Assembly (NCBI GenBank): GCA_018287875.1
Contig: JAGVVL010000018.1
Span: forward strand, 186,001 to 250,000
Reading direction: 5' to 3'
From: Nigrospora sphaerica
Taxonomy: Eukaryota; Ascomycota; Sordariomycetes; Amphisphaeriales; Apiosporaceae
Length of the DNA stretch: 64,000 nucleotides
Within the stretch, counting starts at the first letter, position 1, and each line of letters starts with the position of its first letter. This document shows positions 26,942-58,488 of this stretch, piece by piece. The notes beneath the pieces were generated by a model that saw only the letters and a program-made list of their open reading frames with translations, was not told where the DNA came from and made no database searches. The translations under genes and the position numbers were made by a program.

Positions 26942-29900
26942 ATGCTGTACCCGATCTACTCGCGCGAGGACGCGCTTAACCGCATTCGCGAGTGGGAGGT
27001 CCTCCCCGCCTGTCACTCTGTCTTTCGTTTTGGACACTCCGGCGGCCCTTTGTCCCGGAACGCCGACGACGATCTTGTCGTTTCCTTGTGCGTCCCGCAT
27101 CCTGGTCGGCGCTCTATCGGGCCTCGCTCGGCTGCCTCGGGCGTTGCTAACCCTCCCCTCTAGCCCCAATGCCTTTTGTTGCAACAGTGTCACGACCGGC
27201 GCTGTTGATCCCTCTCTGAACTGTGAGGGTGCCGGCAAGTGCGGGATCTGCGCCATTGATCATCGCAAATGTGTCGCCGTTTGTGTTGCCCTTTGCCCGC
27301 GACTGTGTTGCGATGGCTGACGCGTTTAGATTCCCGAGGAATTGGTCGGTGCCGGCCGCGTCCTCACCGCTGGCATCGCCCATCTTCGCGTCCTTCAATA
27401 CCGCGGTACCCACATGGGCCAGGTGGGCAGTTCCAATTGGAACTGGCGATACGTCCAAGCCTATGGGTCGCTCAAGACGGTCTACCACGAGGCGGCGATG
27501 GCTTTCCGCCTATGCTGCAATGAGGAGGACATTGCCGTCTTCCAGGAGCGCAAGGAACAGAAAAAGCGCGAAGCCGCCAACTCCCTCGCCGTTGTTGAGG
27601 CGCAGAGCCAGCGCCGGTTCGTCCAATTACAAACGGACATCCTCGCCGTGAGTTTCCCCTCCTTTCGCCGCCGCGTCGGCGTACTGGTTCTAATCGTGTT
27701 CCGGTAGGGCGCCCATGGCCAACGGGAGCCTGTCAGTGCTGAGGAGTACCAGCGGCGATACACCCTCGCCCTTCCTGTCGGCGATCGCAGTGCCGATAGC
27801 CTGTCCCGCCTTATCGCGCACTGCGAGGAACTTTATCGCCTAACCGTCGACAACTACGACGACAAGCTGTACCGCTGGGCGCCTGGATACCATTTTCTCG
27901 CGGGCGAGGCCACATCGGATATCGATTGGCAGCGTCGGTTCAAACGATCGCAGAAAAAGGTGCTGCGAGGGTTGATTCGTGGTTTGGTGTCAACCACGCC
28001 CGGCGGGAGAAACATGGTAAGAGCCGCGTTGCTCGAGCAGGTCCCGCCGCCCCTGGTCGCCGTACCCCGGTGAGTCCTCCCCGTCTTCGTTTTGACGCGA
28101 CCGGTCCTTAGTTAACACTTCCGGTAGGGTAGCAAGGCGTCTGTCCGCCGATCCCATTCCGACGCACGAGTCGACTCCGCCGGGCCTTCGTCGCCCTTCA
28201 CGCCAGTCCCCGCCGCGATGCCTGGCGATGAATCGCCTTCCGACGACGAGGACTCTGACGACGACGCCTCGAGCCTGGGTGCGGACACTGACGACGATGG
28301 CGAGTACGTCCAGTCGCCGTCCGGTCGCAGCTCTCCTTCCGGCTCCAGTGCCCGTCCTGGCCCCTCCGGCCGGGGTGGCTCGGGCGCGCCTGCGCTAGAG
28401 GATCGCGACCTGCTGTCCTCTGCTGCGTCCCTGTCGGACGCGCCGATGTCCTCTGCGCCGGCCTCTCGGGTCCAGCGCTCCACTCGTGCTGCGACACCCT
28501 GGCCCTCCAGCCCTGCCTCCGGCGTCCGCTCTGCTAGCGGTGCTCTCTCCGCTAGCGGCGCCTCCTCGATGGTGGAGTGGCGGGCCGAGCGGCGGATCCA
28601 TCTCACGATGATCTCCAATACCTGTCCTCTGCCTGAGAAGCCTTGGTCCGCGGAGGAGTATCGCGACTGCGTCGCCGCGCGCTTGGAACTGTGGCATAAG
28701 TTCGACCAGGTCCCCACGACCGTCGCCGAGCCACCTCATTCGTCCGCTCGTGACCAGAAACTCATTGAGTTTCGCGATTTGGTTCCCCGCCCTTCCGAGG
28801 TTGGAGGCCACCATAATCCTGTCGCAATGTACGACGTTTACCATACTGCCCGACGCGGTTTCGAGACCTGGCTTCGACGTCTACACCCTTGCCTTCGTCC
28901 GGCGGCTCGCTGCCGTCCCCTCTCGTCGCCGGCGAACGGCCAGCGTACTTACAGCGCCTCTCCGGGCTATGGCAAGGCGAGTACGACCCGTTCGCTTCGC
29001 CTAAGCGGGTAAACTTCAGCATGCCCGGCGACGGCGGTCGCGACGTTTCCTCGCTGGACAGTAGCCGCTCTGGTTCCGATGTCGTGGACGGTCTGGACTC
29101 GTGCGGCCCTTCCTCTCCCTTGAGCGCGGTCGCCGACCCAGATGCGTCCGACGGCGGCAACGCCCTGTCCGTTGGCTCCGACACCGGCGGTGACCGCTCC
29201 CCTAGCCCTGATGGCGATGTTGACATGGTCTCGGGGGCACTGACGCGTCGGCGCAAATGCCGCCACCCGCGCAAGCTCTTGCCCCGACCGGCCCGTCCGT
29301 GGACCCACACTGGACTGCCGAGCAATGGGCGCTCGCCCGCCGACGGGCCATGAACCGCATCCTCGAGCTGTATCCTGACCCCGCTCCCCTGTCAGCGTTA
29401 CCGCCTTCCGGGATGTCCTTTGGGCCCGGCACTTCAGTCTCCACTCGGCGAACCGCGAGATAGACACGGCTATGCGCTGGGATTCCCATCCCGCGCCGCC
29501 TAGTGTTCAGCACACGCGAGACACTGAGAACCTCGACGTGGCCACCATCACGCTCTCGGCGACGGCTGACGTCCTTGGTTGTGCTCCCCGAGCTGGCCAT
29601 CTCTCTCTGGCTCGGCTTGCCCAGGCCGGCGGACGATCGCATGTCCTGCGCCGCTTCCCGATCGACGCTACCCGCCCCGATCCCATTGGAGCCGGGTACA
29701 CACCCCGGTACGTCTCCGAGATCGTGACTAGCCTTCCGGCGGCGGCTCCTCCCCTGCCGTTTAAGGACTGGTCCCCGGCCGCAATGGAGGAGTACTACAA
29801 CAGCGCCTTCTCGTCACTCGGCTTGCGACGGATCAACGTCCTCGGTGGCATCGCTCCGCCCGCCGTCTCGCCGTCCTCGTCGACCCGAGGTGCCAAACGT

Positions 29901-29993
29901 CGCCGCTCTGCCGCCGACGACGCGGCTCACGGTCCCTCGGCTGGACCCCTCCTTCGCGACGCCTTCGCCCGTCTCGCCGCTAGGTCGCCCTGA
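26942..29993 (+). CDS. Antisense accessory gene inside the Gypsy element, multi-exon, partly frameshifted
   Basis: This gene runs opposite to gag-pol. Predicted first exons are 26942-27087, 27164-27278, 27330-27647, 27708-28016 and from 28128. Their introns (76, 51, 60 and 111 bp) keep the frame; branch-like sites GCTAAC, CTGAC and CTAAT are seen, and two acceptors share CCGGTAG. Exon 2 carries the Cys motif KCGICAIDHRKC and the splice joins it to IPEEL. Exon 3 and exon 4 are mixed alpha-helical. From about 28,130 the protein is Ser/Pro/Asp-rich and low in complexity. Further frames continue to a stop at 29991-29993 (..LPFKDWSPAAMEEYYNSAF.., then a basic KRRR stretch), but joining them needs one unresolved intron near 28,830-28,970 and frameshifts at a G5 run (29232-29236) and near 29,390. 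It has no pol similarity. The protein at 57622-58488 in the Copia element shares the motif. Function unknown. Confidence 0.6.
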
Positions 29994-30162
29994 CGCGTCA
30001 CCTAGTTTGCCGTCCCCTCATCCGCTGCGTCCTGCGCTTTGGCGGATCCTCGTCGCCCGTACGCCGCCTAGCGGACCTCCTGCGTCCTACTCTGCATGCC
30101 GCGTGCGACCTTCCACAGCAATTGCATGGCTTAGCTCCGTGTACTTCTAGGCCCTGGCCTCG

Positions 30163-30765
30163 TTAATTGATCTGCTGCGCTTCGCGCCCCGCCACTCCGT
30201 GATTTCCTGTGCTCGGAGGGCGATCGTCGTCCCATTTACGGTGGGACCGCCGCTTACGATAGCGTGCCACGATCTTCGGCGCGTTCTCCAGGTTCGCCTC
30301 TGGCTCCCAGGTGTTATATTCCACCGGCCAGCCCATCCATTTCACGAGGTACTCCGCCCCTCGGGCGGTCGTCCTGTGTCGGAGGATATCCTCGACCTCC
30401 CACTCCTCTTGGTCCTCCACCAGTCCTGGGAGTGCCTCATGGTCCCCGGAGGCCTTGCCAGTCCATGGCTCCAACGATGACACTGGGAACACGTCGTGTA
30501 TCCGTTCGTACTGCGAGGGCAGGGCGACCCTGTAGGCCACCTTACCAATCCTCTCCGTGACCTTTACCCGAATGTACGTCGGGGCGAGCTTCGCACCGCA
30601 CTTAAATCGGAACCGCTTCGTCGAGAGGCCTACCCACTGACCTGGTTGGAACTCTTGGTCCTGGTGCCTTCGGTCGTAGCCCTTTTGTTGGGCTTTCACT
30701 GCGACGTCCCAGTGTTCTCTCATACGCGCGCGGACCTCTCGGCTCTTCTGTAGCCGTTCTAACAC
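30163..30765 (-). CDS. Gypsy pol C-terminus: integrase tail with chromodomain (fragment)
   Basis: Reads the SH3-like integrase tail (QKGYDRRHQDQEFQPGQWV...) and then a chromodomain (EWEVEDILRHRTT, AEYLVKWMGWPVEYNTWEPE), whose aromatic residues W..Y..W bind methylated histone tails in this domain class. It marks the element as a chromovirus and may steer integration to heterochromatin. It lies one frame off the integrase frame (junction at about 30,765), so pol needs a frameshift here or the copy is broken. Confidence 0.9.
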   Translation of the reverse strand: MLERLQKSREVRARMREHWDVAVKAQQKGYDRRHQDQEFQPGQWVGLSTKRFRFKCGAKLAPTYIRVKVTERIGKVAYRVALPSQYERIHDVFPVSSLEPWTGKASGDHEALPGLVEDQEEWEVEDILRHRTTARGAEYLVKWMGWPVEYNTWEPEANLENAPKIVARYRKRRSHRKWDDDRPPSTGNHGVAGREAQQIN

Positions 30766-31733
30766 GCCCGCGCTCCGAAAGCGTTCTGCTTGGGGGCGAA
30801 CTCCGTCATCCTCGGGTGAAATCCATACAGCGCCTCAAACGGTGACACCCCGATGGAGTCGTGGCGGCGGTTATTATAGGCGAACTCGGCTTCGTGTAGC
30901 CCGGATGCCCATGTCGCCTCGTCGCAACACGTGCGTAACCACTTCTCTAGTGTTTGGTGCGTTCTCTCTGTCTGCCCGTCCGTTTGGGGATGGTACGCCG
31001 TGCTCAGCCGGCGTTTCGTTGCCCTTGCCTCGCACCACTCTTGCCAGAACCGGCTCGTGAGTAGGGAGTCCCTATCGCTCACAATCCCGAGGGGCGTCCC
31101 GTACCGGCATTCCACTTCCTTATACAGGATATGGGCTAACTCTGCCGCAGTTAGGGTTTTCCTCGTGGGTAGGAACAGTGCCATCTTCGTGAATCGGTCC
31201 ACGATGACTAACACGGCGTCGCAGGCGTCGCCCTCGGGTCGGCAGCTGATCGGCAGCCCAGTGATGAAGTCCATGCTAATCTCTTGCCAGGGTCCCTCGG
31301 GTAGCGGTAGGGATTGGAGTAGGCCGTACGGTTTGTGCCTTGGTCTCCTTGCTCCCTGGCACTCCTGGCATGACTCTGCGTACTGTCGCACCTCCTCGGC
31401 GATCGCGGGCCAGTGGAACTTCCTCGTGAGCAGCTCTAAGGTCTTATTCGCGCCTAGGTGTCCCGCCCTGGGGTCATCGTGGTGTTGGTGGAGTAGTTGG
31501 GCCCTTAACGCTCCCTCATTAGGGATGACTAGCCTTCCTTTAAATCGGAGGGCTCCTTCCTCGTCTAGGTGGTACCCCGCAGCTTGGCCTTGCCGCGCCT
31601 TCTCCATTCGTTCCGCGATGTCCCGGTCCTGGGGTTGTAGCCCCCGAATGAGCTGGTAGAACGCCTCAGTGGGCTTATCCGCCCAAGTGGTCTCGTTTCT
31701 TGCCACGCTTCGAGCCACTGCTCTCGGGAGCAC
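30759..31733 (-). CDS. Gypsy integrase (fragment of pol)
   Basis: Contains the HHCC zinc-binding domain (H..HDDPRAGHLG, CQECQG) and the DDE core: D in SMDFITGLP, D in VSDRDSLLTS and E in TDGQTERTHQTLE. It integrates the cDNA into the host genome. In typical elements it is continuous with RT/RNase H upstream and the chromodomain downstream. Here it is in another frame than both, so this copy is frameshifted at about 31,750 and 30,765. Confidence 0.9.
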   Translation of the reverse strand: MLPRAVARSVARNETTWADKPTEAFYQLIRGLQPQDRDIAERMEKARQGQAAGYHLDEEGALRFKGRLVIPNEGALRAQLLHQHHDDPRAGHLGANKTLELLTRKFHWPAIAEEVRQYAESCQECQGARRPRHKPYGLLQSLPLPEGPWQEISMDFITGLPISCRPEGDACDAVLVIVDRFTKMALFLPTRKTLTAAELAHILYKEVECRYGTPLGIVSDRDSLLTSRFWQEWCEARATKRRLSTAYHPQTDGQTERTHQTLEKWLRTCCDEATWASGLHEAEFAYNNRRHDSIGVSPFEALYGFHPRMTEFAPKQNAFGARAC

Positions 31734-31758
31734 CTGTCCCCCCCACCGGCCTCGTCGA

Positions 31759-33573
31759 TCACTGCTCGGCGCCTCGTCGTGGGTGGCCCTCCTGGCCTTG
31801 TGCCCGGGTTACCGGGGCAAGGACCGCGTCCCCCTGGCCACCCGCCGACCTTTTGTCTGTGTGCGTCACCATCGCCCGCACCGCCCCCACGTACGTCGCG
31901 GTCCCGACGTTTCTCGTGGTGCTGATCCTTGCCACCTGGTGTCGGACCTCGGCCGGCAGCTGGTCGACGAGTGCCAGTTTCATTGCTAGTGACGGAATCA
32001 CGTCGTGGTAGCTGATCTCCCCAGCCATGTAGTCTGGTCGCCGCGATAGCGGATCCGCCGGGTTCGTGGCCCCCTTCCGATATTCCATATCGAAGTCAAA
32101 ATGCGAGAGCCTGTACACCCATCTTGCGAGGCGGCCTCGTAAGTCTCTCGCCGGTGCTTCCACGACCCCTTTCAGTGCCTGGTGGTCGGTCCAGACCGTG
32201 AACTTGGCGCTCAGCCCCTCAAGGTAGTGTCTCCAATGCTCGAGTGATTCGACAATCGCTAGCAGTTCCTTTTGGCCCGTGGCCCAGTTCAGCTCGGGCG
32301 CCGTGAGTTTCCGCGACCAGTAGGCGACTGGCCTCCACTCGCCACCTCCTTGTTTCTGTGATAGGATGCCTGAGACTGCCCTATCACTCGCGTCTGTCTC
32401 GACCCTGCTAGTTTTCTCCGGGTCCCAGTGTCGGAGCACCGTCGCCGAAGTGAACGCGTGCCTTAGCTCTTCGAACGCCTTCTGTGCGTCCAGGGGCCAC
32501 TGGAACGGGCCCTTCTTCCGGCCGGCCTCCATGCCTTTCAGTAGCGCCGTAATCGGTGCCGTGATATGCGAGTACTTCGCAATGAACTTCCTATAGAAGT
32601 TGGTGAACCCTAGGAACACTTGGATGTCCCGGTACGACTCAGGAGGCTGCCATTCCTGCACGGCTATCACTCGTTTCGGGTCCATCTTTAAGCCTACTTG
32701 GCCGACCACGAATCCTAGGAACTCGATTTCCTCTTTAAAGAATTCGCACTTCGAGATCTTCGCAAATAGCTCGTGCTCCTTCAGCCGTTCGCACACCATT
32801 CGGAGATGCGTCGCGTGTTCCTTCGCGTCCTGCGAGTAGATGACGATGTCGTCGAGGTAAACCACGCAAATGGTGTCAATGAGCCCTGCTAATGCCTTCT
32901 GCATATGGGCCTGAAACGTGGCGGGCGCGTTCGTGAGCCCCATGGCCATCACGTTATACTCGAAGTGGCCGTACTTCGTTCGGAACGCGGTCTTCCAGCG
33001 GTCGCCCTCTGCGATTGCGAGGCGAAAATAGGCGTCTCGTAAATCCATCTTCGAGAACACCTTCGCCGACCCCAGCTGATCCATCAGCTCGCTAATTAGC
33101 GGAAGCGGATATCGGTTCTTTACCGTGACCTTATTTAGGCCCCGGTAATCGACGCATAGTCGTAGACTGCCGTCCTTTTTTGGCACGAATAGCACGGGTG
33201 CCCCCGCCGGGCTCGTGGAGTGCCTAATGCGACCGGTTTCCAACGCCTTCGCGAGGTACTCCTCGAGCTCCTTTCGTTGCGGTTCTGAGAGGGGATAGAT
33301 AGGTCCGTGTGGAGGCTGTGCGCCGGGGATGAGGTCGATCGTGTGCGGTGTCTCTCCTAAAATAGGCGGCTCCGCGGCTGCGGACTCACTAAACACGACC
33401 TCGTACTCCTTTAAACAGGCTGGTAGCGCGACGGTCCCTATGGGCGGTTCGTCGTCAAGCCCAGGTATCGCCGACGCGTCACCTAACTCTAGCCTCGCTA
33501 GCTGGGCGATTAGCACCGGTTCGCCTTCGGTCGCTTCGCGGGCGAACTCCTCTGGCCCCACGAACTGCATCAC
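31759..33573 (-). CDS. Gypsy reverse transcriptase and RNase H (fragment of pol)
   Basis: 604 codons open. The RT begins with the TSPAGAPVLFVPKKDGSLR block, then SKMDLRDAYFRL, the catalytic VVYLDDIVIYS (YLDD) and FLGFTNFYRKFI. RNase H follows with TDASDRAVSG, GQKELLAIVESLEHWRHYL and WTDHQAL. It copies the element RNA into DNA. The N-terminal 100 residues link to the protease region, which is in another frame (33606-33965). Confidence 0.92.
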   Translation of the reverse strand: MMQFVGPEEFAREATEGEPVLIAQLARLELGDASAIPGLDDEPPIGTVALPACLKEYEVVFSESAAAEPPILGETPHTIDLIPGAQPPHGPIYPLSEPQRKELEEYLAKALETGRIRHSTSPAGAPVLFVPKKDGSLRLCVDYRGLNKVTVKNRYPLPLISELMDQLGSAKVFSKMDLRDAYFRLAIAEGDRWKTAFRTKYGHFEYNVMAMGLTNAPATFQAHMQKALAGLIDTICVVYLDDIVIYSQDAKEHATHLRMVCERLKEHELFAKISKCEFFKEEIEFLGFVVGQVGLKMDPKRVIAVQEWQPPESYRDIQVFLGFTNFYRKFIAKYSHITAPITALLKGMEAGRKKGPFQWPLDAQKAFEELRHAFTSATVLRHWDPEKTSRVETDASDRAVSGILSQKQGGGEWRPVAYWSRKLTAPELNWATGQKELLAIVESLEHWRHYLEGLSAKFTVWTDHQALKGVVEAPARDLRGRLARWVYRLSHFDFDMEYRKGATNPADPLSRRPDYMAGEISYHDVIPSLAMKLALVDQLPAEVRHQVARISTTRNVGTATYVGAVRAMVTHTDKRSAGGQGDAVLAPVTRAQGQEGHPRRGAEQ

Positions 33574-33605
33574 TCTAAACGTGAACGTGTCTGGCTTTCG
33601 TGTGT

Positions 33606-33965
33606 CTAAGGTAATTCCTCCCGCCCCATGCCCGGGCGGGACAGTAGCACCTGGGCCGCGTGCTTATCTCGGCGCACGACGAAGAACACCTGCGTGAACC
33701 TCCGTACCTGCCCTTGCACGTCTTGCATCTCTATCGCCGCTTCCACGGCGCCATAGCACCGTAGCGGCTGCCCGTCGACCCCTAAAAGTCGCGGCAGAGT
33801 TATGGGGACTTTCGTAACCCAACCCCTCGTGACGGCTCGATCCGCCGTCCGCTTTGCGATCACGTTGACCTCGGCCCCCGAATCCAGGTCGATCCGAATC
33901 GGCTTCTTCGCTCGGCCGAGTTCGTCGCATAACTGGCCCGTGGTGCGCATGGCCGCGCCTAGCAC
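33606..33965 (-). CDS. Gypsy aspartic protease region (fragment of pol)
   Basis: Carries the active-site motif LDSGAEVNVI and the downstream LLGVDGQPL..YG and VLLSRPGM blocks of a retroviral-type pepsin-fold protease. It releases Gag and Pol products. It ends at a stop just before the RT frame, so a frameshift separates them. Confidence 0.8.
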   Translation of the reverse strand: MLGAAMRTTGQLCDELGRAKKPIRIDLDSGAEVNVIAKRTADRAVTRGWVTKVPITLPRLLGVDGQPLRCYGAVEAAIEMQDVQGQVRRFTQVFFVVRRDKHAAQVLLSRPGMGREELP

Positions 33966-35402: not shown

Positions 35403-35635
35403 TGTAACGGAATGATACGAATCGAACGAGGTGACTATGTGCACGCAATTCCAATGACTGGCTGGCTGTATTGACTTCAATCTGGCCGTCCCTCCGTTTG
35501 CGGGCGCGGCCAGATTCTGCATAAGGGCGCCCCGGATTAACGTGGCGCCGCTCCGCCGTTTCGGCGACCGCCCTGGCGCTTGCTTCCCGCCGGCGCGCCG
35601 ACGCACCGCCGATCCGCCCGCCCGGCCCCTTTACA
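35403..35635 (-). repeat. 5' LTR of Gypsy element (233 bp)
   Basis: Same length and apparently the same sequence as 26237-26469; CCAAG follows at 35636-35640. For the minus-strand genes this is the promoter LTR. Confidence 0.92.
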
Positions 35636-35640
35636 CCAAG

Positions 35641-38337: not shown

Positions 38338-38349
38338 CATCCCATGATA
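38338..38349. repeat. Target-site duplication of the short LINE copy
   Basis: CATCCCATGATA here and at 40319-40330 flanks the element at 38350-40318. Confidence 0.8.
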
Positions 38350-40318
38350 TTATTATTATTATTATTATTCTTACACCTAGCGACCTATTTAGGCCATGAG
38401 GACCCCCTGCGCATCTTAGCCTAGGAAAACCGTTCCGGGCTGACGTCCGGCCGGGTGAAAAACCTAGGTTCCGCTGCGTCGTACCGCTTCTATCTACTCT
38501 TTGACCTGCCATACCGAGATCGGGCTCAGCGCGCCCGCTTCCTAGCTGATGAGTTGATTCGCCAGCTGGAACATGTCCAGCCTGCCCGAGCGGAGTAGCC
38601 ATCTTGCGATAATTCCTGCTTTTCCGGGGGTGTCGAGCATCCTGTCCGTGTCTATCGGTCCTCCTAGAGCTTGGACGAGATGCTCTCGTCTTTCTCTTTC
38701 CCGTGGGCAGAAAACGAGGATATGCCGGACGGTCTCCCTACCCTGACCGCAGTCACACCATGGGCTGTCGAAGCCTGGAACCCTGCGCTTAAAAGGAAGT
38801 CTCGCAGCCCAATCTTGCCGGTCCTCGCTTGGACGAGGATCGAGCTCTCTGCCTTGTGAAGTCCTTTATGGAGCTTAAGGACGTGCTTGTCTGGCGGCAT
38901 CTTGGTTGCTGCCGGGGCTCGCGCTGTTCGGTTTTTCTGCGTTTGTTGCCATCTCTGGAGCCAGTCTCTCTCCTCAGCCTTATATGCTGAGTCTCCAGCT
39001 AGCCATTCGTTTAGCCACCTCTTGCGATCGGGAGTGTCGGGGCCTTTCGGTCTGCGCCGGCGATTCGGTCTTGTTAGAATCCATCTGGCTGCGTTATCGC
39101 ATCTTACTTGGATAAGCGTGGCGATGCGTGGCTGTTGGAGCCTCTCTTCCGAAGCCGCCACTCTTTTGTTAAGCCATACGTCTAAGGCCCCCTATCCCCC
39201 GGGTCTAGTTCTCTGCGCTTTCCATAGAAAGAGGTGGGGAATAGAAGGTTTGCACCTTAAGCAGCCCGCAAGGGCATATCCCTCTCTAGGACCACCGACA
39301 TGCGCATCCGTCCTCTCGAGCCATAGCACGACCTCCTCGACCTGCAGCCTCCCAGGATAGCACTTGCGCTAGCGACACTCCGATAGAGAAGATGCCCTTT
39401 GGCACAATCGAAGGCAGTCCGTCTTATCCTTGTCTCCAGGTCCCTAGGCTGGCCCCATCCAGCTGTTCATCCCCTTCCACGGCAAGTCCTCGAACCGGTT
39501 CCATCTCTAGTCGACCCTAGTGCGAGTAGGGGACGTAGGGGCTACCCTGTTCTTCTGCCGGTCCCGCGGTCGTCGTGCTATGCTACGGCCCACCGGTGTC
39601 CTAGGGTGGCGAGCCCTAGACCGGCTTCCCGTTGCTTGCCGCTATCTTTGCCGGCGAGCCGACTATGTCTTGCCGTAGGCCTTCGGTAAGGGGTACCACC
39701 ACGCCGGTATAGTACCCTGTAAGGCCTCGACTAACCTGCCCTGATCCACTATATGTTCGTCTCCGGAGCGGTGCGCTGTCACCCCGAAGGGCGACACGGG
39801 CAGCCAGCCGTAGCCACTATTGCCTTAACGACTCCGTTCCCGTGCTCTTAACAACTTCCATTACTCCGTACGCACGCCCACTTAGGTATTCGTTCGATAC
39901 CCTCGCGGCTGTTCACTGCAAGCCGTCTTAGAGCTCGGCAGGGCCGAGGGTGTCCTGTCGTCACCTCGAGAACCGAGTCGACGTCGGATGGTTTTTTTAC
40001 CCAAATCCCTCTATAAAGACGAGGGCCTTCGCTGCGCGCCTATTTTGTCGTCGATCCGGCGTCGCGCGGTGTCGATTTTCGAGGCTGCTTGCTGCGTTTG
40101 GCGGGGGCGAAAAATTTTTGGTCGTGCGACGCCCGAAAATCCCGCATCACAGACCGTCTCAGCACAACTCCGGTGCAGCGACATAGCGACGCAGCAATGG
40201 CGCCTCGCTACACTTTCGTGCAGAATGCGTCTCTATATCGGCTCCCCCTCAGTCAATTGACCTAGGAAGATTTCCAGCCGGCGCCGCGGGGAGGCTGTAG
40301 AGTCCGACTTCGCCAGCC
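38350..40318 (-). mobile_element. Internally deleted Tad1-like LINE
   Basis: A 1969-bp copy, minus strand, with a (TAA)n 3' tail (TTA repeats at 38350-38370 on plus) and a 12-bp target duplication. It keeps the 3' end of ORF2 (38,400-39,186, for example NEWLAGDSAYKAEERDWLQRW) and about 1.1 kb of 5' sequence (39,187-40,318). About 3 kb is missing relative to the copy at 40842-45814 (its 41,684-44,683), including endonuclease and RT. The join at about 39,187 lies at TCTAAG|GGCC. Both ends are intact and flanked by one duplication, so it probably moved in deleted form using enzymes from a full copy. Confidence 0.82.
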
Positions 40319-40330
40319 CATCCCATGATA

Positions 40331-40828
40331 GCCTGTGTTTATATTATCCGTCGATCTGTCGTCAATGGTACGGATGCTCGATGTCTATACCTAATTAAGG
40401 AAAACAGTACCAAATGCTGTTATGAGCTCATTATTCCGCTCACCTAGTGACTCGATTTTAGTATCCTAACAGGCCCGGGAATGCGAATTTTAATTTTGTA
40501 GCCTAATCTGACCAATTAAAAAACAGCGTCACAGAAAGGGAGGCTTAAAGACACTTGCGCCACATTTTGGGTACAGCACGGCCTGTACGGAACACTCCAG
40601 GTAACAAGTCTCATCTGAAATTCTAAAGTATAAGTGGGAACGCGCTATAAGTCGTATTTTCCGAACCGGTTGGGATACTCATTTAGCCGCTCAGCTCTCA
40701 GCCCCCCTTCTTTTTTTTTCATACCCATCCTAGCCCTGATGGTCAACCCGCTTCTTAGCACGGCGGGTTTTGGAGCTTTTTTCTCGCTCTTGTCAACGCG
40801 TGCAGCGCGGGCCTGTGCTTCCCGCCCA
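40331..40828. other. Spacer holding the severed 3' end of a host gene
   Basis: On the minus strand, 40828-40755 continues the reading frame of the secreted protein gene at 45729-46559 beyond the LINE (LGGKHRPALHALTRA...) to a TAA at 40757-40755. A T9 run and its 3' flank follow. Nothing else is recognised. Confidence 0.55.
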
Positions 40829-41037
40829 GGGTACGGGGATTATTATTATTATTATTATTATTATTCTTACACCTAGCGACCTATCAAGGCCATGAGGACC
40901 CCCTACGCATCTCAGCCTAGGAAAACCGTTCCGGGCTAACGTCCGGCCGGGTGAAAAACCTAGGTTCCGCTGCCTCGCACCGCACTTGTCTACTCTCTAG
41001 CCTGCCATACCGAGATCGGGCTCAGCGTGCCCGCTTC

Positions 41038-44221: not shown

Positions 44222-44751
44222 AGTCGAGCGTAGATGCTGTTTAGTGTTAACTCCGGCGTTTCGATGTCCATGTCGTCTGTCTCTTCGTGGGCTCTGCTGC
44301 GGGCTCTGCCAGTGCTTCTAGTGCGGCAGCTGGTTGCTCGACGCTTCCGTAGCTGTACTGTCTGCCAGTCCTCGGCTGTTGGCTTAGGGGGTTCATGTGA
44401 GGGCAGTGCGAATCCCTTCGGTCTCGTGACATAAGCAGCCTTAGCGATCTGGACCTGCTCCTGGCGGACTGGACACTCCTTAGACCACGCAGTGTGTGGT
44501 CCTCGGCATGCTGGACAGCAATATCGGCTCTGGTTCTCCGTTTCCGGGCATTCTTTTTCCTCGTGCTTAGTCGAGGAGCAGAGCCCGCATCGTCGTGCAT
44601 AGCGGCAGACTCGGGCAATGTGTCCATATCGATAGCAGCGGTAACACTGCTTAAGCTGCGCTCCTTCAGCGAAAGGCTCGCATGGCCTCCTATTCCCCGG
44701 GTCAAGTTCTCTGCGCTTTCTATAGAAAGGGGGGGAATAGAAGGTTTGCAC
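44218..44751 (-). CDS. LINE ORF1: RNA-binding protein with zinc knuckles (C-terminal part)
   Basis: Cys/His clusters CYRCYRYGHIARVCRYARRC, CGLCSSTKHEEKECP and CCPACRGPHTAWSKECP form Gag-like CCHC knuckles, usual at the end of ORF1 in Tad1-type LINEs. A basic C-terminus follows. The N-terminal part upstream (to about 45,200) is in other frames and is only partly readable. The stop codon overlaps the start region of ORF2 (44221). Confidence 0.8.
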   Translation of the reverse strand: MQTFYSPPFYRKRRELDPGNRRPCEPFAEGAQLKQCYRCYRYGHIARVCRYARRCGLCSSTKHEEKECPETENQSRYCCPACRGPHTAWSKECPVRQEQVQIAKAAYVTRPKGFALPSHEPPKPTAEDWQTVQLRKRRATSCRTRSTGRARSRAHEETDDMDIETPELTLNSIYARL

Positions 44752-45728
44752 CTTAAGCAGCCCGCAAGGGCATATCCCTCTTTAGGACCACCGACATGCG
44801 CATCCGTCCTCTCGAGCCATAGCACGACCTCCTCGACCTGCAGCCTCCCAGGATAGCACCTGCGCCAGCGACACTCCGACAGAGAAGATGCCCTTTGGCA
44901 CAATCGAAGGCAGCCCGTCTCATCCTTGTCTCCAGGTCCCTGGGCTGGCCTAATCCAGCTGTTCATCCCCTTCCACGGCAAGTCCTCGAACCGGTTCTAT
45001 CTCTGGTCGACCCTAGTGCGAGTAGGGGACGTAGGGGCTACCCTGTTCTTCTGCCGGTCCCGCGGTTGTCGTGCTATGCTACGGCCCACCGGTGTCCTAG
45101 GGTGGCGAGCCCTGGACCGGCTTCCTGTTGCTCGCCGCCATCTCTGCCGGCGAGCCGACTATGTCTTGCTGTAGGCCTTCGGTAAGGGGTACCACCACGC
45201 CGGTATAGTACCCTGTAAGGCCTCGACTAACCTGCCCTGATCCACTATATGTTCGTCTCCGGAGCGGTGCGCTGTCACCTTAAAGGGCGACACGGGCGGC
45301 CAGCTGTAGCCACTATTGCTTTAACGACTCCGTCCCCGTGTTCTTAACAACTTCCATTACTCCGTACGCACGTCTACTTAGGTATTCGTTCGATGCCCTC
45401 GCAGCTGTTCGCTGCAAGCCGTCTCAGAGCTCGGCAGGGCCGAGGGTGTCCTGTCGTCGCTTCGAGAACCGAGTCGACGTCGGATGGTTTTTCTACCCAA
45501 ATCCCTCTATAGAGACGAGGGCCTTCGCTGCGCGGTCGATTTGTCGTCGATTCGGCGTCGCGTGGTGTCGATTTTCGAGGCTGCTTGCTACGTTTGGCGG
45601 GGGCGAAAAGTTTTCGGTCGTGCGACGCCCGAAAATCCCGCATCACAGATCGTATCAGCAAAACTCCAGAGCAGCGACATAGCGACGCAGCAATAGCGCC
45701 TCGCTGCACTTTCGTGCAGAATGCGTCT

Positions 45729-48660: not shown

Positions 48661-51639
48661 ACGGTGACCCCCGAGATTGTATCGGCGGCTGCACTTCTGG
48701 CCGAAGCGGACGCGTAGGATGAGAGTTTTGGAAACAGCACCAAGCGATCATTGCATGCCCGGGGATCCTACTGGATGGAAACAATCGCTCGTAAAGGCAG
48801 TGTTCCGTGGGGCAGCGATCCTAACTACCGGGTATGGTTAATTTCCATAACGAAACGTTGTTTTCTTTTTTTGGGGGGGGACGTGAGGCTAACCGCGCAT
48901 GTGTGGTACTGCGGCTACAGGTTTTCTGTAACGTCAAAGACTATGGGGCCAGAGGTGATGGTCGCACAGACGACACTGCCGCCATCATGAAGGCCATGAC
49001 CGAGGGCAAGCGGTGCGGCGAGAAATGCAATGGGTTTACGACGAAAAATGCCATTGTGTATTTCCCCCCCAGCACCTATCTTGTCTCCAGCACTATCGAC
49101 GTCTATTTCGGAACCCTGGTCATCGGTGATGCTGAAGATCGCCCCATTATTAAGGCCGCGGCCAGTTTCGTCGGTCTTAGTGTTCTTTCAACGGATAAGT
49201 GTGTATTTCCATCCCATCATGTATATAACAGAACGCATTTTTCTAACACGTGGTGCTCTTCAGATACGCTGGCGGTGTGGGAACCGACGGTAACGACAAC
49301 GAATGGTACGTCAAAACTGCCAGTTTCTACCGGCAAATTCGGAACTTGATTATCGACATCACCTCGACGGACCCCAACGCGTACGTCTGCGCTCTTCACT
49401 ACCAGGTCGCCCAAGCCACGAGTATCCAGTACCTAGATTTGGTCGCTAAAAGCGGCACCACCTAACAGGGCATCTATGCCGAGAACGGCAGTGGTGGCCA
49501 CATGTCCGACATCATCTTCAAGGGTGGAAACTTTGGCTTTTGTAAGTGCGCGTTATATAACCGCTTGTTGTCGGCTAACCCTTTTCTTAGATGGTGGCGC
49601 CCAGTAGTTTACGGCACAGCGTATACACTTTATCGGCTGCAAAACAGCGGTGCAGCTCATTTAGGACTGGGGCTGGGTGAGTCTCGTCTTCTAAGCTGAT
49701 ATTGTGCGACCTGGTCCGCTAATCCGAAATATGTAGCTGTGGAAGGAGATCAGCATCCAGGACTCGGACGTGGGGTTCCGTCTTCTCGGTGAGGGGGGTT
49801 CGGAGACCATTGGATCCGTAACCATTATGGATTCCGTCTTCACGAATGTTGATACTGGCGTCATTGTAGCGCCAGCCTCGGAAAAGCCCGGAGCGGGTTC
49901 CACGGGCATCGTGCTGGATAATGTCAGGTTCACCAGCGGCGCGGCCCTTGTTAAGGACAGCGCCGGTGCCACGCTCCTCGGCGCACAGAATGCCGACAGC
50001 TGGACCCTGGGCCCGAAATACAGCGCTGGATATAGGGGCTGGGCCAAAGGTGATAACACACCGTATGTCAGGGACGCTAGCACTCTCCTTGGCGATGCCT
50101 GGGGTGGTCTTCCTAACAAGCCTTACTTTGAGCGTCCCAGGCCGACATACGGGGGGTTTTCGGCGGGAGATTTTGTCTATCTAAAGGACTACGCCTTAGG
50201 TGAGTTCGCACAACTACTAGCGCGGACCCAAACTAACGTGTGGTTTAGGAGACGGTGTGTCGGATGACACAGCAGGTATCCAAAGAGCGTTGAAGGAGAA
50301 CGCTGGCCGCAAGATCATCTTTGCCGATGCCGGCACTTACCTCGTCATGGATACCATTTTTATTCCACCTGGCACGCGCATTGTCGGTGAGACATGGATG
50401 CAGTTTGCAGCTGTTGGTGATCGGTTTTCCAATATTAAGTGAGTTACCGACTTTTTACCAGCTCCGAAATCCAGGGGGATGGACTTTAACTAATACCTCT
50501 GAAAGTAATCCACGTGTTATACTGCAGGTCGGAGAGGAGGGTGCCGTGGGTGACGTGGAAATCCAAGATCTCATGTTCACTACAAAGGGCGCCACTGCGG
50601 GTGCCGTTTTGTTGGAATGGAACATCTAAGCTGCGTCACCTGGAAGTGCAGGCATATGGGGTGAGTTTTGCATACAAGACACGAGATAATTTTACAAGGA
50701 GATAATTCACTGACGGTTTCACAGACTCTCATGTGCGCATTGGCGGTGCGCTTAGAACGGATCTCACGCCTGCCGAATGCCCTGCCCTTACGAACGGCGA
50801 GGTCAGGTCGGGGTGCATTGCAGCTACCATGATGATGCATATCACGCGAGAGGCATCTGGCTACTTCGAAAACATGTGGTTATGGGTTGCCGACCATATA
50901 GTTAAGTGAGTAAAGCCCCCTAATGACCAGTGTAGAATGAAGCAACTGACCATCACTACAGTGATCCCGATTTGGAGAGCGATAACAATGAAATGGTATG
51001 TATTGGGATTTCCCGCAGCCTGATCCCCTCTAACATGAGCTTGATAGACCCAAATTTCAGTCTATGTCGCCCGTGGGCTGTTAATCGAGAGCCAGAACGC
51101 TGTCTGGCTATATGGCACTGCTTCGGAGCACGCCACATTATACCAGTACAGCTTCTATGGCGCCACCAATGTACTTGCGGGCTTGGTCCAGACTGAAACA
51201 CCGTATTACCAACCTACCCCGCGGGCTCCCATCCCCTTCGAGAACACTGTTGGCATGTTTTTCGGCGATACCGACTTCGACTGTGGGAAAGTCGAATTCG
51301 ACGGGTGCGACTCCTCCTAGGGTCTCGTACTCGACGGATGCAAAGACGTATATATTCCGTCGGCAGGTATTTACTCGTGGTTTAGCACGTACTCTCAAAG
51401 CTGCAGTGAGTTACCCCCACACTATGAAGTCGTTACGTGGCCTTACTGATCCGTTTTGTCTGCAGTCGACGGCCACGAATGCTAGAAAGCCTTAGTTTAT
51501 CTTGGCAAGAATGACAAGAACCTTAGGATTCAAAACCTAATCACTATAGGCGCTGCTAACTCGGTTATTTACGATAAAGGCGCCCAGACCGTGGGTGCCC
51601 TGGATAACCTGGCGGTGGAGGCGCATCCAGCTTGGTCTC
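48661..51639 (+). pseudogene. GH55-type exo-beta-1,3-glucanase, 5' part, broken by stops and by a Copia insertion
   Basis: Reads TPEIVSAAALLAEADA, stop 48715, then SYWMETIARKGSVPWGSDPNY. A 92-bp intron (GTATGG donor at about 48830) leads to the first pectate-lyase-like repeat (NVKDYGARGDGRTDDTAAI, FPPSTYLVSS, ENGSGGHMSDIIFKGGNFG). The second repeat starts at about 50,170 (FVYLKDYALG, then DGVSDDTAGI after an intron), followed by EIQDLMFTTKGATAGAVLLEWN, MMMHITREASGYFENMWLWVADH and WLYGTASEHATLYQY. Two such beta-helix repeats define GH55, whose members release glucose from beta-1,3-glucan. In-frame stops include 48715, 49463, 49605, 49662, 50627, 51318 and 51483. Most are explained by Q or W codons changed by one transition. 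The Copia element interrupts at 51639; the 3' part is at 59179-60416. Confidence 0.85.
51635..51639. repeat. Copia target-site duplication GTCTC
   Basis: GTCTC before the 5' LTR and again at 59174-59178 after the 3' LTR. The two host halves continue across it in frame (AHPAWS to ITIFDALPIVSG). Confidence 0.88.
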
Positions 51640-51829
51640 TGTCGCGAGACGAGCCTATTGTCACTAACAAGCCTACCAGGTCACGTGACTTTATGTAAGC
51701 TCAAGAGCCTAGCCTGTCAGGCAGGCTACGGAACTACTATATCTACGTCTGGATCCTCAGATAGTTTTCCTTTGTTTTTCCTAATAGAACAACTAGAATC
51801 TCGTTCCTCACGTCCCCTGAAGTGCGACA
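51640..51829 (+). repeat. 5' LTR of Copia element (190 bp)
   Basis: TG...CA ends; same length as, and apparently identical to, 58984-59173. Confidence 0.92.
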
Positions 51830-54545: not shown

Positions 54546-54647
54546 AGACGAGCGGCTGGGCTGGACCGACGAGCGTTCAAAGTTCAACCAAGGGCTCAGA
54601 TCGGTTATCTAGTAGGTTACGCCGCTAGGAACATCTACAGGATCTGG

Positions 54648-55796
54648 TTGCCCAAGCACGGCAGAGTCATTCAGATGCGAGACGTCACCTTCGACGAGAC
54701 GCAGTTCTATTCTAGCCGAGACTCGCAACGTCTTGAGCCAGAGGCGATAGAATATCTGGAATTTCAGCCCTTAGAGATCCCATTGAGCGAAGCAGGCTTT
54801 ACAAACGAGTCGATGCCGCTCTGGGAAGCTCTTGAGGAGCTAGACGACGCCATAAGTCCTGAAACACGTCCCGACTCCACTCGAGAGGCTCATCTCGTGG
54901 ACTCGGGGGTGCCGGACACACCTGAGGGACCAGTCGACAAGAACTCGGGGGTGAGATGCGCACCTGAAGACATCCAAGGAATTCATGGGCCTAGGATGTC
55001 GGATGCACAGACAGGACTTCTTACGCCTGGTCGCCAGTCAAGTGAGCCGGAGGGCGAAAACAGCATGCTTTACCCTACGGAACACCTCACAAGCGAACCA
55101 CGGCATAGATCCAGTGATCACCAGCCAGTTGCAACTGCTGGAGAGTCAGGGTCAGAAAACACGGGACGAGCAGCAGAGCGGCCACTCTCAGGCTCACCCG
55201 AAGTGTCAGAACCAGCAGGCATCTCGGCGCGCAGGCCGACGAGCTCAACTGGGACACCAGACCGGAGCATAGCTCCTCAGAGACTGCATGGTCAGTCTCC
55301 AGACCAGAGGATAGCTCCTCAGAGACTGCAAGGTCAGACTCCAGAGACGGATCTACAAGAAGAGATCCATGACGAAATTATTGTTCGGCCTCTTGACGAA
55401 GAGACGGACCAGAGACCGCCTGAGAGCCGCAGAGCAACTAGGGGTAGGAGATCCCGAGCCTCACAGCCGACGCAACCGGCGAGGAGGAGCTCGAGACTCC
55501 AGAGAGAACAGGAAACGGATCAGCAGTCGTTCCTTTCGCTGCTATTCGGGCTCAAGGAGATAACCCAACAAGAGACTGATCATCTCGATGCTCTCCTAAG
55601 CACCTGTCTCGCTAAGGAGGCCACAAACCAAGATGAGGACCTCCTGAGAACCATTCATGCGCGAATATTCGCGTCAACACGGTCTCAAAGAGCACTCAAG
55701 GAGCTAGACGAACTAAGCGGACCGCAGGGCTTCGCTCCTCCACCTAAGTTCTGGCGTGAATTAGCTACTCACCCCAGAGGAGAGCAGTTCAGATAA
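54648..55796 (+). CDS. Copia linker between integrase and RT (fragment)
   Basis: 382 codons open. It begins with the integrase tail (PKHGRVIQMRDVTFDET). The rest is hydrophilic and low in complexity with a duplicated segment (IAPQRLHGQSPDQ / IAPQRLQGQTPE). It ends before the RT with TAA 55794-55796, so RT is reached only by readthrough or the stop is a mutation. Confidence 0.78.
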   Translation: MPKHGRVIQMRDVTFDETQFYSSRDSQRLEPEAIEYLEFQPLEIPLSEAGFTNESMPLWEALEELDDAISPETRPDSTREAHLVDSGVPDTPEGPVDKNSGVRCAPEDIQGIHGPRMSDAQTGLLTPGRQSSEPEGENSMLYPTEHLTSEPRHRSSDHQPVATAGESGSENTGRAAERPLSGSPEVSEPAGISARRPTSSTGTPDRSIAPQRLHGQSPDQRIAPQRLQGQTPETDLQEEIHDEIIVRPLDEETDQRPPESRRATRGRRSRASQPTQPARRSSRLQREQETDQQSFLSLLFGLKEITQQETDHLDALLSTCLAKEATNQDEDLLRTIHARIFASTRSQRALKELDELSGPQGFAPPPKFWRELATHPRGEQFR

Positions 55797-55823
55797 GCTA
55801 CCAAGCTCGAGATTAACAAGGCA

Positions 55824-57359
55824 GTGGCTATGAAGGCCTGGGAGGAGGTTCCAGACACTCCCTCGCTCTTCAAGCTGCCCTTAAAATGGGTTTTCACCGA
55901 TAAATTCGATGAGAACAACAAGCACCTTCGCTGCAAAGCAAGGATCTGCGTGCGAGGAGATAAGCAGATTGTCACTTCACTAGCTAGCACGTACGCTGCT
56001 ACGCTAGCCTCGAAGTCCTTCAGGATTATCATGGCCCTAGCGGCCTACTTCGACTGGGAAGTCAGACAGTTCGACGTTGTCAACGCATTCCTGAACGCAC
56101 TTTTCGCAGAAAACTCCGAACCAATCTTCGTGGAACATCCACCAGGCTATGAAAGACCAGGATACTGTCTCAAGCTGAACAGAGCACTCTATGGACTTAA
56201 GGAATCACCTCAACTATGGTTCCGAGACTTCTCGAGCTCACTTCGAAGACTTGGGCTTATCAGCACACCTGAGGAACCCTGCCTGTTCTACAACGAGAAA
56301 CGCACGATCTTCGTTGTGTTCTATGTGGACGATTTCCTGGTCTGTTACAGCCCACAAGCTAAAGAGGAGGCACTAGCCTTAATCGAAGCCCTCAAGGGTA
56401 TCTATGAGCTAAAGGACCAAGGATCTGTGGGCTACTACCTAGGGGTCAGGGTCACTCGTAAGAGAAACGAGGGATTACTCTGGCTCTCGCATGACAGCTA
56501 TCTTGAGAAGATAGCGAGACGTTTTAACCTCCAGGACGACAAGTCACCAGCGACGCCACTCCCGTCCACAGCCTTGCAAGCTTATCAAGACACTGCTCCA
56601 GCTCACCGAGTTAAATCTTACCAGGAACGCGTTGGGAGCATCCTCTACAGCGCTATTATGATCAGGCCGGACCTTTCCTTCGCCTGCTCACAGCTATCTC
56701 GCTTCCTCACGAATCCAAGTCAAGAGCATCTCGAGGCAGCTGACTGGTGCATACGGTACGCGTTTAGCACTCGATACGTGTCGATACGCTACGGAATGAA
56801 GAAACCAGTGCAGTCTATCCCACAAGCGCTAGTTATCTTAACGGATGCTTCATTTGCAGACGATCCGGAGACGCGTCGTTCTTCCCAGGGATACCTCATC
56901 CAGCTATTCGGAGGACCAGTAGCCTGGAAGGCCAGCCGACAAGCGACAGTTACCACTTCCACCACGGAGGCAGAGCTTCTGGCGCTCAGCGAGACAGCCA
57001 AGGAGACCATGGCACTTCAGAGGCTATTCAGAGACATCCAACTCGTCCTGGACGTGCCTTTCAGCATCTCCTGCGATAACCAGCAGACGATACGCCTTGT
57101 CATCGGCAATCAGGAGAGGGTATCTACGAAGCTAAGGCACGTTGATATACACAACCTCTGGCTCCGCCAAGAATACTCCAGGGGCTCATTTCAATTGATC
57201 TATCTCGCCACAAAGGACATGCCAGCCGACGGACTAACGAAGAATCTACCACGGGCGAAATTTGAGCAATTTAGAGCGACTCTCAACCTTCAGGACATCC
57301 GACAAGCGATTGAGGAAGCAGAGAATGGAAAACAACGCATATGGATTGAAGAATCTTAA
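55824..57359 (+). CDS. Copia reverse transcriptase and RNase H
   Basis: 511 codons open. RT: LKWVFTDKFDENN, KARICVRGDKQ, QFDVVNAFLNA (catalytic D), LNRALYGLKESPQLWF, FVVFYVDDFLV (YVDD). RNase H: LTDASFADDPETRRSSQGY, STTEAELLALSE and DNQQTIRLV, followed by the usual LRHVDIHNLWLRQEY and ADGLTKNL end. The domain looks intact, the best preserved coding part of the element. Confidence 0.92.
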   Translation: MAMKAWEEVPDTPSLFKLPLKWVFTDKFDENNKHLRCKARICVRGDKQIVTSLASTYAATLASKSFRIIMALAAYFDWEVRQFDVVNAFLNALFAENSEPIFVEHPPGYERPGYCLKLNRALYGLKESPQLWFRDFSSSLRRLGLISTPEEPCLFYNEKRTIFVVFYVDDFLVCYSPQAKEEALALIEALKGIYELKDQGSVGYYLGVRVTRKRNEGLLWLSHDSYLEKIARRFNLQDDKSPATPLPSTALQAYQDTAPAHRVKSYQERVGSILYSAIMIRPDLSFACSQLSRFLTNPSQEHLEAADWCIRYAFSTRYVSIRYGMKKPVQSIPQALVILTDASFADDPETRRSSQGYLIQLFGGPVAWKASRQATVTTSTTEAELLALSETAKETMALQRLFRDIQLVLDVPFSISCDNQQTIRLVIGNQERVSTKLRHVDIHNLWLRQEYSRGSFQLIYLATKDMPADGLTKNLPRAKFEQFRATLNLQDIRQAIEEAENGKQRIWIEES

Positions 57360-57372
57360 AGCATCGTGGACA

Positions 57373-57410: not shown

Positions 57411-57443
57411 ATGAACGAACCGCAAAACATCCCACAAGCTACC

Positions 57444-57461
57444 AAAAAAAAAAAAAAAAAC
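57444..57461 (+). repeat. A-run (about 18 A)
   Basis: A homopolymer of about 18 A, 85 nt after the pol stop. It separates the normal Copia part from the region holding the antisense gene. It could be a captured poly(A) tail. Confidence 0.8.
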
Positions 57462-57621
57462 GCCATCGTTAACCCCAGCTAGGACCCTGCTTTCCCTTCC
57501 TCCGAGCCTCCTTCGTGTGGTACTGCACGCGAGGAGCGCGCTCCCTGAGCTTCACGATGGGACCAAGCTCCGCAGGATTGTCGCCGGAAACACTGGAGAA
57601 ACTGGAGCTCGAGCTCAAGTC

Positions 57622-58488
57622 CTACTTTCTCCGCTCGCTACGCCTCTCAGGCAGCTTGGTACGCGCACTAGGGCCAGGCGTAGGCGTCTCGGGCGCTGGA
57701 GAGGACTCAGAAGGCGGAGGGGAAGAGAGCGGCGAAGAGCTGTCGGACGCAGGAGCGCTGCGAGGCTCAGGAGAGCCCACGTCGCCTCCAAGAAGCGTGT
57801 GGTCATCGGGAAGGCCATGCAGGTCGCGCAAGCCCTTCACGGTTGCTCTCATACGACGAATCTGAGGCTTCAAGCCTGTCAGGACAGCCAGCAGGAGAAT
57901 CAGCAGCAAAAAGGTACTCACAACGTTCTGGACCGGGCGGTTCAGCTCACGCAACAGGGAACGAGCAGCCAGGGCAAGCCACTCGGGCACCTCCTCGCAC
58001 TGATGGTTGTTTAAAGTGCACTCGTAGCACTTCAAGGCACCTGGCAAGCGAGTATCGTGGCAATGGCCACGAGAATGACGCTCGGCACCACGCAAACAGG
58101 GGAGACAGGGTGTGAAGCGCAAGTCACCTTTCTGGCGCCGCAGAATAGCCATCTCAGCGCGAGACGGGCTGGCGGCCTTGCGAGCCTTGTCCTTGGCCCT
58201 GGCGCGCTTGATGAGCTCTCTGGCGCGCTTGAGTTCCTCGGGGTCTATGTCGGACTCGCTGTCCTCGTGATCGCGGCCAGGCTTGCCGCTGCCCTGGAAA
58301 GGCGCACGCCCGCCACTGCCCTGGCCAACCGCTATGAAGCGAAAAGTTAGCAAAATGAGCACCAGAGAACAGGCGAGGTGCGAACAAACCGGCAGACATT
58401 GCTGATGATACTGGAAAATGGCGAGAAGAAGCTGGATGGATGGCCTGAAAGGCGAGAGAAGAAGTGCAGAAGACAGTGGGAAGCGCAA
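57622..58488 (-). CDS. Antisense accessory gene inside the Copia element (288 aa)
   Basis: Minus strand, opposite to pol, between the A18 run and the 3' LTR. One open frame of 288 codons. Residues 1 to about 55 are hydrophobic (may be leader or intron-containing); an acidic-basic helix follows (DIDPEELKRARELIKRARA). Next is the Cys cluster (CLPCLRGAERHSRGHC, then KCYECTLNNHQCEEVPEWL), a hydrophobic segment (VVSTFLLLILLLAVLTG) that could cross a membrane, and a Ser/Pro-rich basic tail. KC-x2-C-x6-C-x2-VPE matches the antisense gene in the Gypsy element with identical spacing. No retroviral function is recognised. The start could be a later Met or a spliced exon. Confidence 0.68.
   Translation of the reverse strand: MRFPLSSALLLSPFRPSIQLLLAIFQYHQQCLPVCSHLACSLVLILLTFRFIAVGQGSGGRAPFQGSGKPGRDHEDSESDIDPEELKRARELIKRARAKDKARKAASPSRAEMAILRRQKGDLRFTPCLPCLRGAERHSRGHCHDTRLPGALKCYECTLNNHQCEEVPEWLALAARSLLRELNRPVQNVVSTFLLLILLLAVLTGLKPQIRRMRATVKGLRDLHGLPDDHTLLGGDVGSPEPRSAPASDSSSPLSSPPPSESSPAPETPTPGPSARTKLPERRSERRK

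Follow-up and report, generated by a model that had tools for sequence, protein, structure and literature searches.

The window analysed here, 64,000 nucleotides of the filamentous ascomycete Nigrospora sphaerica (contig JAGVVL010000018.1, positions 186,001 to 250,000; C10:186001-250000 in our numbering of a genome of 51.6 Mb in 33 contigs), contains two retrotransposons, a minus-strand Ty3/Gypsy element and a plus-strand Ty1/Copia element, and in both the interval from the end of pol to the 3' long terminal repeat (LTR) holds a coding region in antisense. Our preferred reading, which we hold with about even confidence, is that these are antisense accessory genes encoding zinc-cluster-like proteins, most likely nuclear regulators of the element, and that what the two proteins have in common is a type of domain. 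The genes have a common position and orientation, an exon structure that emerges from comparison of families, a reading frame under selection and a cysteine pattern. We consider them bona fide genes because they are predicted to be spliced, are repeated in element copies and show substitutions concentrated at third codon positions, which argues for selection on the protein. Each element would thus carry a gene antisense to gag-pol that is transcribed and spliced by the host, and whose introns would survive retrotransposition because they run antisense to the genomic RNA.

As a rule both genes reside in LTR elements, in agreement with a preliminary description of this DNA, which had proposed a cargo read in antisense in the interval from pol to the 3' LTR. 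In merged searches of the fungus's own genome, 35 of 40 Copia antisense loci lie in antisense downstream of a Copia pol match, at a distance of at most 3 kb; the count omits three weak matches (C1:3958808, C9:2911510 and C33:3439001), none of them near the pol matches compared, and becomes 35 of 43 with them. The corresponding figure for the Gypsy gene, within 5 kb of a Gypsy pol match, is 20 of 26, scored with 45 Gypsy pol rows out of 72, the others being distant from the six loci left unmatched; this count leaves out two matches with E above 2 (C33:2390970 and C10:1590994) and becomes 20 of 28 if both are taken as unlinked. A decayed relic of the Copia-type antisense gene at C13:4068240-4068587 (L038) has no Copia pol match nearby. 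A bZIP-like frame 3' of a distant Copia pol (L065) was taken, by eye, to be a host gene.

The Copia antisense gene is read on the minus strand. By prediction it comprises a minute first exon at 58390-58399 (ATG TCT GCC G), an exon at 57922-58331 that encodes C-x2-C-x11-C-x10-C-x2-C-x6-C-x2-VPE, a frame-keeping intron of 54 nt at 57868-57921, which would read VSTFLLLILLLAVLTGLK if retained, and a last exon at 57622-57867 that runs from RRMRATVKGLRDL onward to a Ser/Pro-rich end. The run VSTFLLLILLLAVLT was considered as a membrane segment and ruled out in favour of this in-frame intron. Three Copia families were compared: F1, the window element; F2 (for example L033, L061 and L062), with pol 72-74% identical to that of the window where a full match was listed; and F3 (L032 and L035; 73% for L032). 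All share the tiny first exon (MSA or MSTA), the intron behind it, the cysteine exon and the last exon, and the 54-nt intron of F1 matches introns of F2 and F3; the domain common to them is C-x2-C-x11-C-x10-C-x2-C-x6-C-x2-[VL]P, and the proteins of F2 and F3 have acidic ends. Predicted splicing gives F1 an uninterrupted frame of 221 codons. F2 and F3 possess an additional predicted intron, in phase 2 and one base before the codon of the last motif cysteine, that F1 lacks, so that an intron, as far as splice predictions go, has been gained or lost inside the antisense gene of a retroelement.

Over 109 ungapped codons, the first, second and third positions are identical at 60, 66 and 40 sites between F1 and F2, at 61, 64 and 42 between F1 and F3, and at 81, 72 and 51 between F2 and F3, and the amino acids encoded are identical at 50, 50 and 65 sites, respectively. 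This comparison bears on the possibility that the antisense transcript itself is what matters, as a source of double-stranded RNA or small RNAs, the reading frame being incidental. Antisense transcripts of LTR elements can indeed feed silencing, according to parts of PMC7264820, but identical amino acids outnumber identical third positions in every pair, which points to selection on the protein and makes such an explanation decidedly improbable.

A search of a protein collection with F1-F3 returned eight Copia-type relatives, whose contigs, 0.5 to 2.0 kb long, offer no genomic context. Six of the eight retain PC-x2-C..GHCH..C-x2-C; P0005 ends ahead of the second C-x2-C, and in P0008 tyrosines replace cysteines. 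Five (P0002, P0003, P0004, P0006 and P0007) continue into a tyrosine past an HNHT-like end, the reading that F2 and F3 have across their intron. With the window Copia open reading frame (ORF) as query, the collection yielded one protein, identical over the part covered and encoded on a 1.5-kb contig, and a scan of IMG/VR with the Copia domain gave 23 pattern matches, none of them a relative. The collection search returned no relatives of the Gypsy protein.

The window Gypsy antisense gene lies on the plus strand and begins with an ATG at 26942. Its predicted first exon (26942-27087) is followed by a GTGCGT donor; the first intron probably ends at 27163, past a branch-point-like GCTAAC, so that exon 2 would start with PNAFCC, and an alternative acceptor, which ends at 27187, is likewise in frame. 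Exon 2 (27164-27278) carries the cysteines in the form NC-x5-CGIC-x6-C-VA, exon 3 (27330-27647) reads IPEEL..TDILA and shows a codon-position signature against the relative L059, and exon 4 (27708-28070) has a frame that past 27953 hinges on a run of A of copy-variable length. The Ser/Asp-rich remainder (28129-29993) has no single open frame, and copies differ in length there. The genome contains 20 whole-stretch copies of this gene (19 near-identical ones including that of the window, and one at 93%) besides partial or mutated ones. When the 20 copies are aligned over 26942-29993, 24 of the 29 indel columns fall within runs of at least three identical bases, and the frame breaks in exons 4-5 may therefore be assembly errors. 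Between the window copy and L059, which are 85% identical in DNA, mismatches number 5 of 114, 6 of 115 and 38 of 115 at the first, second and third codon positions; the mutated relatives L060 and L073 were left out of this comparison.

A six-frame scan of the window finds C-x2-C-x6-C six times, and two of these matches, at 27240-27272 on the plus strand and at 57997-58029 on the minus strand, fall in the antisense genes. The Copia gene reads KCYECTLNNHQCEEVPEWLALAARSLL (in a longer reading, KCYECTLNNHQCEEVPEWL), with no intron interrupting it there, and of the two it alone runs directly into x2-[VI]P in the unspliced frame. In the Gypsy gene the unspliced frame has no x2-[VI]P after the last cysteine; removal of 27279-27329, which joins 27278 to 27330, yields KCGICAIDHRKCVA-IPEELVGAGRVL, that is, KCGICAIDHRKCVA-IPEEL. 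The scan and the joined reading thus bear out what had been described initially, namely that motif and spacing are common to the two genes and that the Gypsy match appears only once the intron is removed, from which the earlier description also drew support for the splice. That splice finds further support in two other Gypsy families, which have a predicted intron at the identical place, two codons after the last cysteine and in phase 0, and in a decayed relative (34%) that retains the AG|ATTCCC exon start of exon 3. The likeness of the two window proteins in this motif is real, if short, and, taken alone, is weak evidence of descent.

These further Gypsy families have pol proteins 50% and 53% identical to that of the window element, both with a chromodomain (Pfam Chromo, E 3.9e-14 and 8.2e-18), and both, in the elements whose 3' flank was read (L074 and L075), have antisense genes with six cysteines. 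We refer to the window gene as Gy1, to that of L075 as Gy2 and to those of L074, L076 and L077 as Gy3a, Gy3b and Gy3c. Gy2 encodes LPCCRCAARLVTWSKDDGAPSLCEDND-SASVKCDYCQKLGKPCAD ahead of a predicted intron, with one intron presumed upstream, and Gy3a-c encode [PA]CRRC..C..DRC-x2-CC..K-x-C-x2, again ahead of a predicted intron. Since this intron keeps its place and phase from Gy1 to Gy3 (with a GC donor in Gy3a and Gy3b), the antisense genes of the Gypsy elements probably form one old set. At least seven of the 15 Gy2 and Gy3 loci are antisense and at most 5 kb 3' of a Gypsy pol match, as scored with 70 of the 283 pol candidates. A search of the genome with Gy2 listed nothing beyond its own two loci.

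In Gy3a and Gy3b the frame of the domain is interrupted by a TAG right after PCRRC (L074, reverse strand, about 900-1130). Codons that differ between L074 and L076 number eight synonymous and four nonsynonymous among the 28 before the TAG, and 15 and eight among the 41 after it; synonymous changes occur also in the codons that neighbour the conserved TAG. The more distant L077 has ATT at this site and a TAG of its own some 20 codons downstream. An intron over the TAG seems unlikely, since by eye no splice donor is common to L074 and L076 there. Our best guess is that the UAG serves read-through or regulated termination; it may also be a shared inactivation.

The preliminary description went on to regard the two window genes as members of one mobile accessory family. 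The part of this proposal that stands is that a cysteine domain is encoded antisense in both superfamilies, and in Gy2 and Gy3 as well; a single family is not established by the comparisons that follow. BLASTP aligns the two spliced window proteins over 29 residues, 12 of them identical (E 0.001 in this single comparison), and finds nothing meaningful outside that stretch, and when the genome is searched with either one at E up to 10, the loci of the other are not listed. Against a profile of the three Copia families the window Gypsy protein scores 7.2 bits, a value reached by 10 of 3000 plain shuffles and by 26 of 3000 shuffles with the cysteines held fixed; against the second half of that profile it scores 6.0 bits (7 and 38 of 3000). 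With a profile of ten sequences, of which seven do not have the VPE half, the score falls to -0.8 bits (1522 and 1190 of 3000). That last result, and the fact that the spacing is a common one, would suit the view that a short cysteine motif matches by chance or through composition, an explanation that is nevertheless quite improbable in view of the three-family profile tests, the tests with Gypsy-family profiles and the recurrence of the six-cysteine pattern in other Gypsy families.

Profile-to-profile comparisons speak to common descent. An hhalign comparison of Gypsy with Copia spans 31 columns at 39% identity (E 0.0017, probability 16%). With four Gypsy rows the Copia profile gives E 0.0015 and a probability of 17%, scores as high being obtained in none of 499 plain and seven of 497 cysteine-fixed column shuffles; with five rows, differently aligned, it gives E 0.00046 and 33% (none of 498 and none of 500). 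The latter result, together with the BLASTP match, is what would be expected if a single family of antisense genes had been exchanged between Copia and Gypsy elements, perhaps through template switching, and had then diverged fast while its cysteine domain persisted. Antisense cysteine genes are indeed present in each of the three chromodomain-Gypsy families with a 3' flank that was read (those of the window, L074 and L075) and in at least three Copia families, and the weakness of the similarity is compatible with descent: the divergence of the Gypsy genes is so rapid that Gy2 as a query recovers no loci but its own, even though Gy1-Gy3 share an intron. Set against a single family are the seven cysteine-fixed shuffles that match the four-row score, the low scores of single non-window Gypsy rows (12 to 14), the searches in which one window protein fails to find the other, and the introns beside the motif, which differ in place and phase (in phase 2 before the last cysteine in Copia F2 and F3, in phase 0 two codons past it in Gypsy).

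The most telling control consists of canonical zinc clusters. A profile of GAL4, PPR1 and PUT3 scores 23.78 against the Copia profile (E 0.00038; none of 400 plain and none of 400 cysteine-fixed column shuffles as high), the same as the 23.77 of the Gypsy profile, and GAL4 and PUT3 taken singly score 22.0 and 24.4; GAL4, which reads CAKCLKNNWECRYSP, also has C-x2-C-x6-C followed by P. Because canonical Zn2Cys6 proteins match the Copia profile as well as Gypsy does, the motif, judged by these alignments, marks a domain type and not a particular family. Copia is no closer to Gypsy than to generic zinc clusters; Gypsy is closer to Copia than to them, its profile reaching only 15.70 against Zn2Cys6. 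Descent from one mobile family strikes us as unlikely, if deserving of attention. Less likely still is its strongest form, in which one zinc-cluster-type regulator gene, a transcription or anti-silencing factor, was exchanged antisense between Ty1/Copia and Ty3/Gypsy in filamentous fungi, its synthesis being throttled in one Gypsy branch by read-through of the conserved UAG in the zinc domain.

The alternative is that each superfamily took up, in antisense, a different host gene for a zinc-cluster-like protein, and this we consider plausible, at somewhat short of an even chance. It agrees with the equal scores of the Copia profile against Zn2Cys6 and Gypsy, with the differing introns and with the absence of meaningful BLASTP similarity beyond 29 residues. 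It also asks that the same domain type arrived twice at the same place and in the same orientation, a coincidence unless selection favoured it; no strong match to a host gene came out of the own-genome searches, whose results were copies of the elements, relics and a few weak hits (E 2 to 3), and the Gypsy profile is closer to Copia than to Zn2Cys6.

Zn2Cys6 domains have the spacing C-x2-C-x6-C in their first half and C-x(5-12)-C-x2-C-x(6-8)-C in their second. The second half of the antisense domains fits, with x10 in Copia, x5 in the window Gypsy protein and x9 in the other Gypsy proteins, followed by C-x2-C-x6-C in F1-F3, Gy1, Gy2 and Gy3a-c. The Copia protein has a basic stretch, followed by the zinc-cluster-like domain with its six cysteines, then a short helical section and finally a tail that is acidic or rich in Ser and Pro, and the Gypsy proteins have a related or analogous region of six or five cysteines. 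Because such a domain, the basic stretch before it and the tail are what a nucleic-acid-binding regulator might be expected to have, the products may be nuclear DNA- or RNA-binding regulators of the element's own expression, resembling small zinc-cluster regulators; a zinc-binding regulator, which had been suggested at the outset, is a reasonable role for them; anti-silencing, the other role named there, is the more speculative of the two.

Several results weigh against the reading of these genes as carriers of zinc-cluster-like regulators. Pfam Zn_clus gives no match for F1, F2, F3, Gy1, Gy2 or Gy3 at E up to 10, in a search whose filters drop most matches above about 0.1. The first loop is x11 in Copia, x16 in Gy2 and x19 in Gy3a and Gy3c, where Zn2Cys6 has x6, and the window Gypsy protein lacks the first of the six cysteines and then has x13. 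The Gypsy profile scores weakly against Zn2Cys6 (15.7, E 0.023), and PPR1 alone reaches only 11.1 against Copia. A structure model proved unusable (mean predicted local distance difference test score 61, predicted template modelling score 0.30) and gave no fold match at E <= 0.001. Nor is the Copia gene universal: with no antisense match within 3 kb at 31 of 66 Copia pol loci, it seems dispensable. Among those without a match is C9:54533, whose pol is 92% identical to that of the window Copia and whose 3' flank was not read; L063, L064 and L068 (C12:26182, C10:179715 and C5:1043551), at 81-84% pol identity, have no antisense gene in their 2-kb 3' flanks, which are partly LINE (long interspersed nuclear element) sequence. 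In these four copies the gene may have been lost or never gained. In other searches, the full Copia ORF has no Pfam Zn_clus match at E up to 1, sequence profiles of the PDB give four matches for Copia at E 0.14 to 9.3, none Zn2Cys6 by name, and the same profiles give none for Gypsy.

The elements themselves are well delimited. The Gypsy LTRs, 233 bp each and without a difference, lie at 26237-26469 (3') and 35403-35635 (5'), flanked by the target duplication CCAAG at 26232-26236 and 35636-35640; on the minus strand between them are the chromodomain end of pol (30163-30834; Pfam Chromo, E 8.5e-19), integrase (30759-31808; Integrase_H2C2, E 8e-18, and rve, E 1.5e-08) and reverse transcriptase with RNase H (31759-33663; RVT_1, E 5.9e-37). 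The Copia LTRs, 190 bp each and likewise without a difference, occupy 51640-51829 (5') and 58984-59173 (3') on the plus strand, with GTCTC at 51635-51639 and again at 59174-59178. The part of Copia pol at 54546-57359 includes an SH3-like integrase end (SH3_retrovirus, E 7.6e-12) and the reverse transcriptase at 55797-57359 (RVT_2, E 7.3e-35), and in the window copy an in-frame stop separates these two frames. An AT-rich segment (24254-26118) that ends about 110 bp short of the Gypsy target duplication is bounded by inverted repeats of 64 bp that are 95% complementary, and by eye resembles a mutated DNA transposon. Elsewhere, LINE-like frames, their kind judged by eye, are repeated in partial copies at 38348-45020, and open frames at 61202-62683 resemble, again by eye, a DDE-type transposase.

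An antisense gene of this sort, brtn of the Boty-like elements, is said to have been described by Zhao et al. 2011 (Virology 417:248). The window genes are antisense accessory genes of that known kind. As the relevant parts of the sources describe it, brtn is an additional gene of Boty-like elements of Botrytis cinerea (PMC7264820, PMC8365987, PMC4227169) and, compared by description and not by sequence, resembles the window genes in being antisense, in belonging to an LTR element with a chromodomain in a filamentous ascomycete (PMC4227169) and in lying between pol and the 3' LTR (PMC7264820); it differs in that a Copia counterpart is not mentioned in the sections of those three papers devoted to it. 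The aORF-3R genes of plants (Grande gene23, RIRE2, Retand TRP28 and PvRetro13) are similarly antisense, located in the interval from pol to the 3' LTR and kept in many copies, and the Grande protein is nuclear and TRP28 predicted to bind DNA, but the corresponding passages name neither a cysteine domain nor a Ty1/copia carrier (PMC7264820, PMC11963269). Bdelloid rotifers offer a parallel in ORF3, an extra ORF of which one and the same type can occur in unrelated retroelement classes; the types given in the part of PMC5408684 concerned (GDSL, DEDDy, CC and TM) include no zinc cluster. With the fungal Zn2Cys6 proteins (GAL4, PUT3, PPR1; Pfam Zn_clus) the Copia domain shares six cysteines, the C-x2-C-x6-C of the second half and profile similarity; the Copia and Gypsy domains differ from them in the longer first loop and in being unseen by the Pfam model. 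In the literature searched, which mostly excluded subscription papers, no antisense gene of a fungal Copia element is described, and the words "antisense" and "additional ORF" are absent from the main texts of two surveys of fungal LTR elements (PMC5445492, PMC3248453).

Antisense accessory genes of LTR elements are thus known, and their function is given as not known in the pertinent parts of PMC7264820 and PMC11963269. The presence of a zinc-cluster-like domain in the antisense genes of both Copia and Gypsy elements of one fungus would provide a concrete biochemical hypothesis, namely that the products bind the DNA or RNA of their own element, and young elements with identical LTRs, such as those of the window, offer material with which it could be tested.

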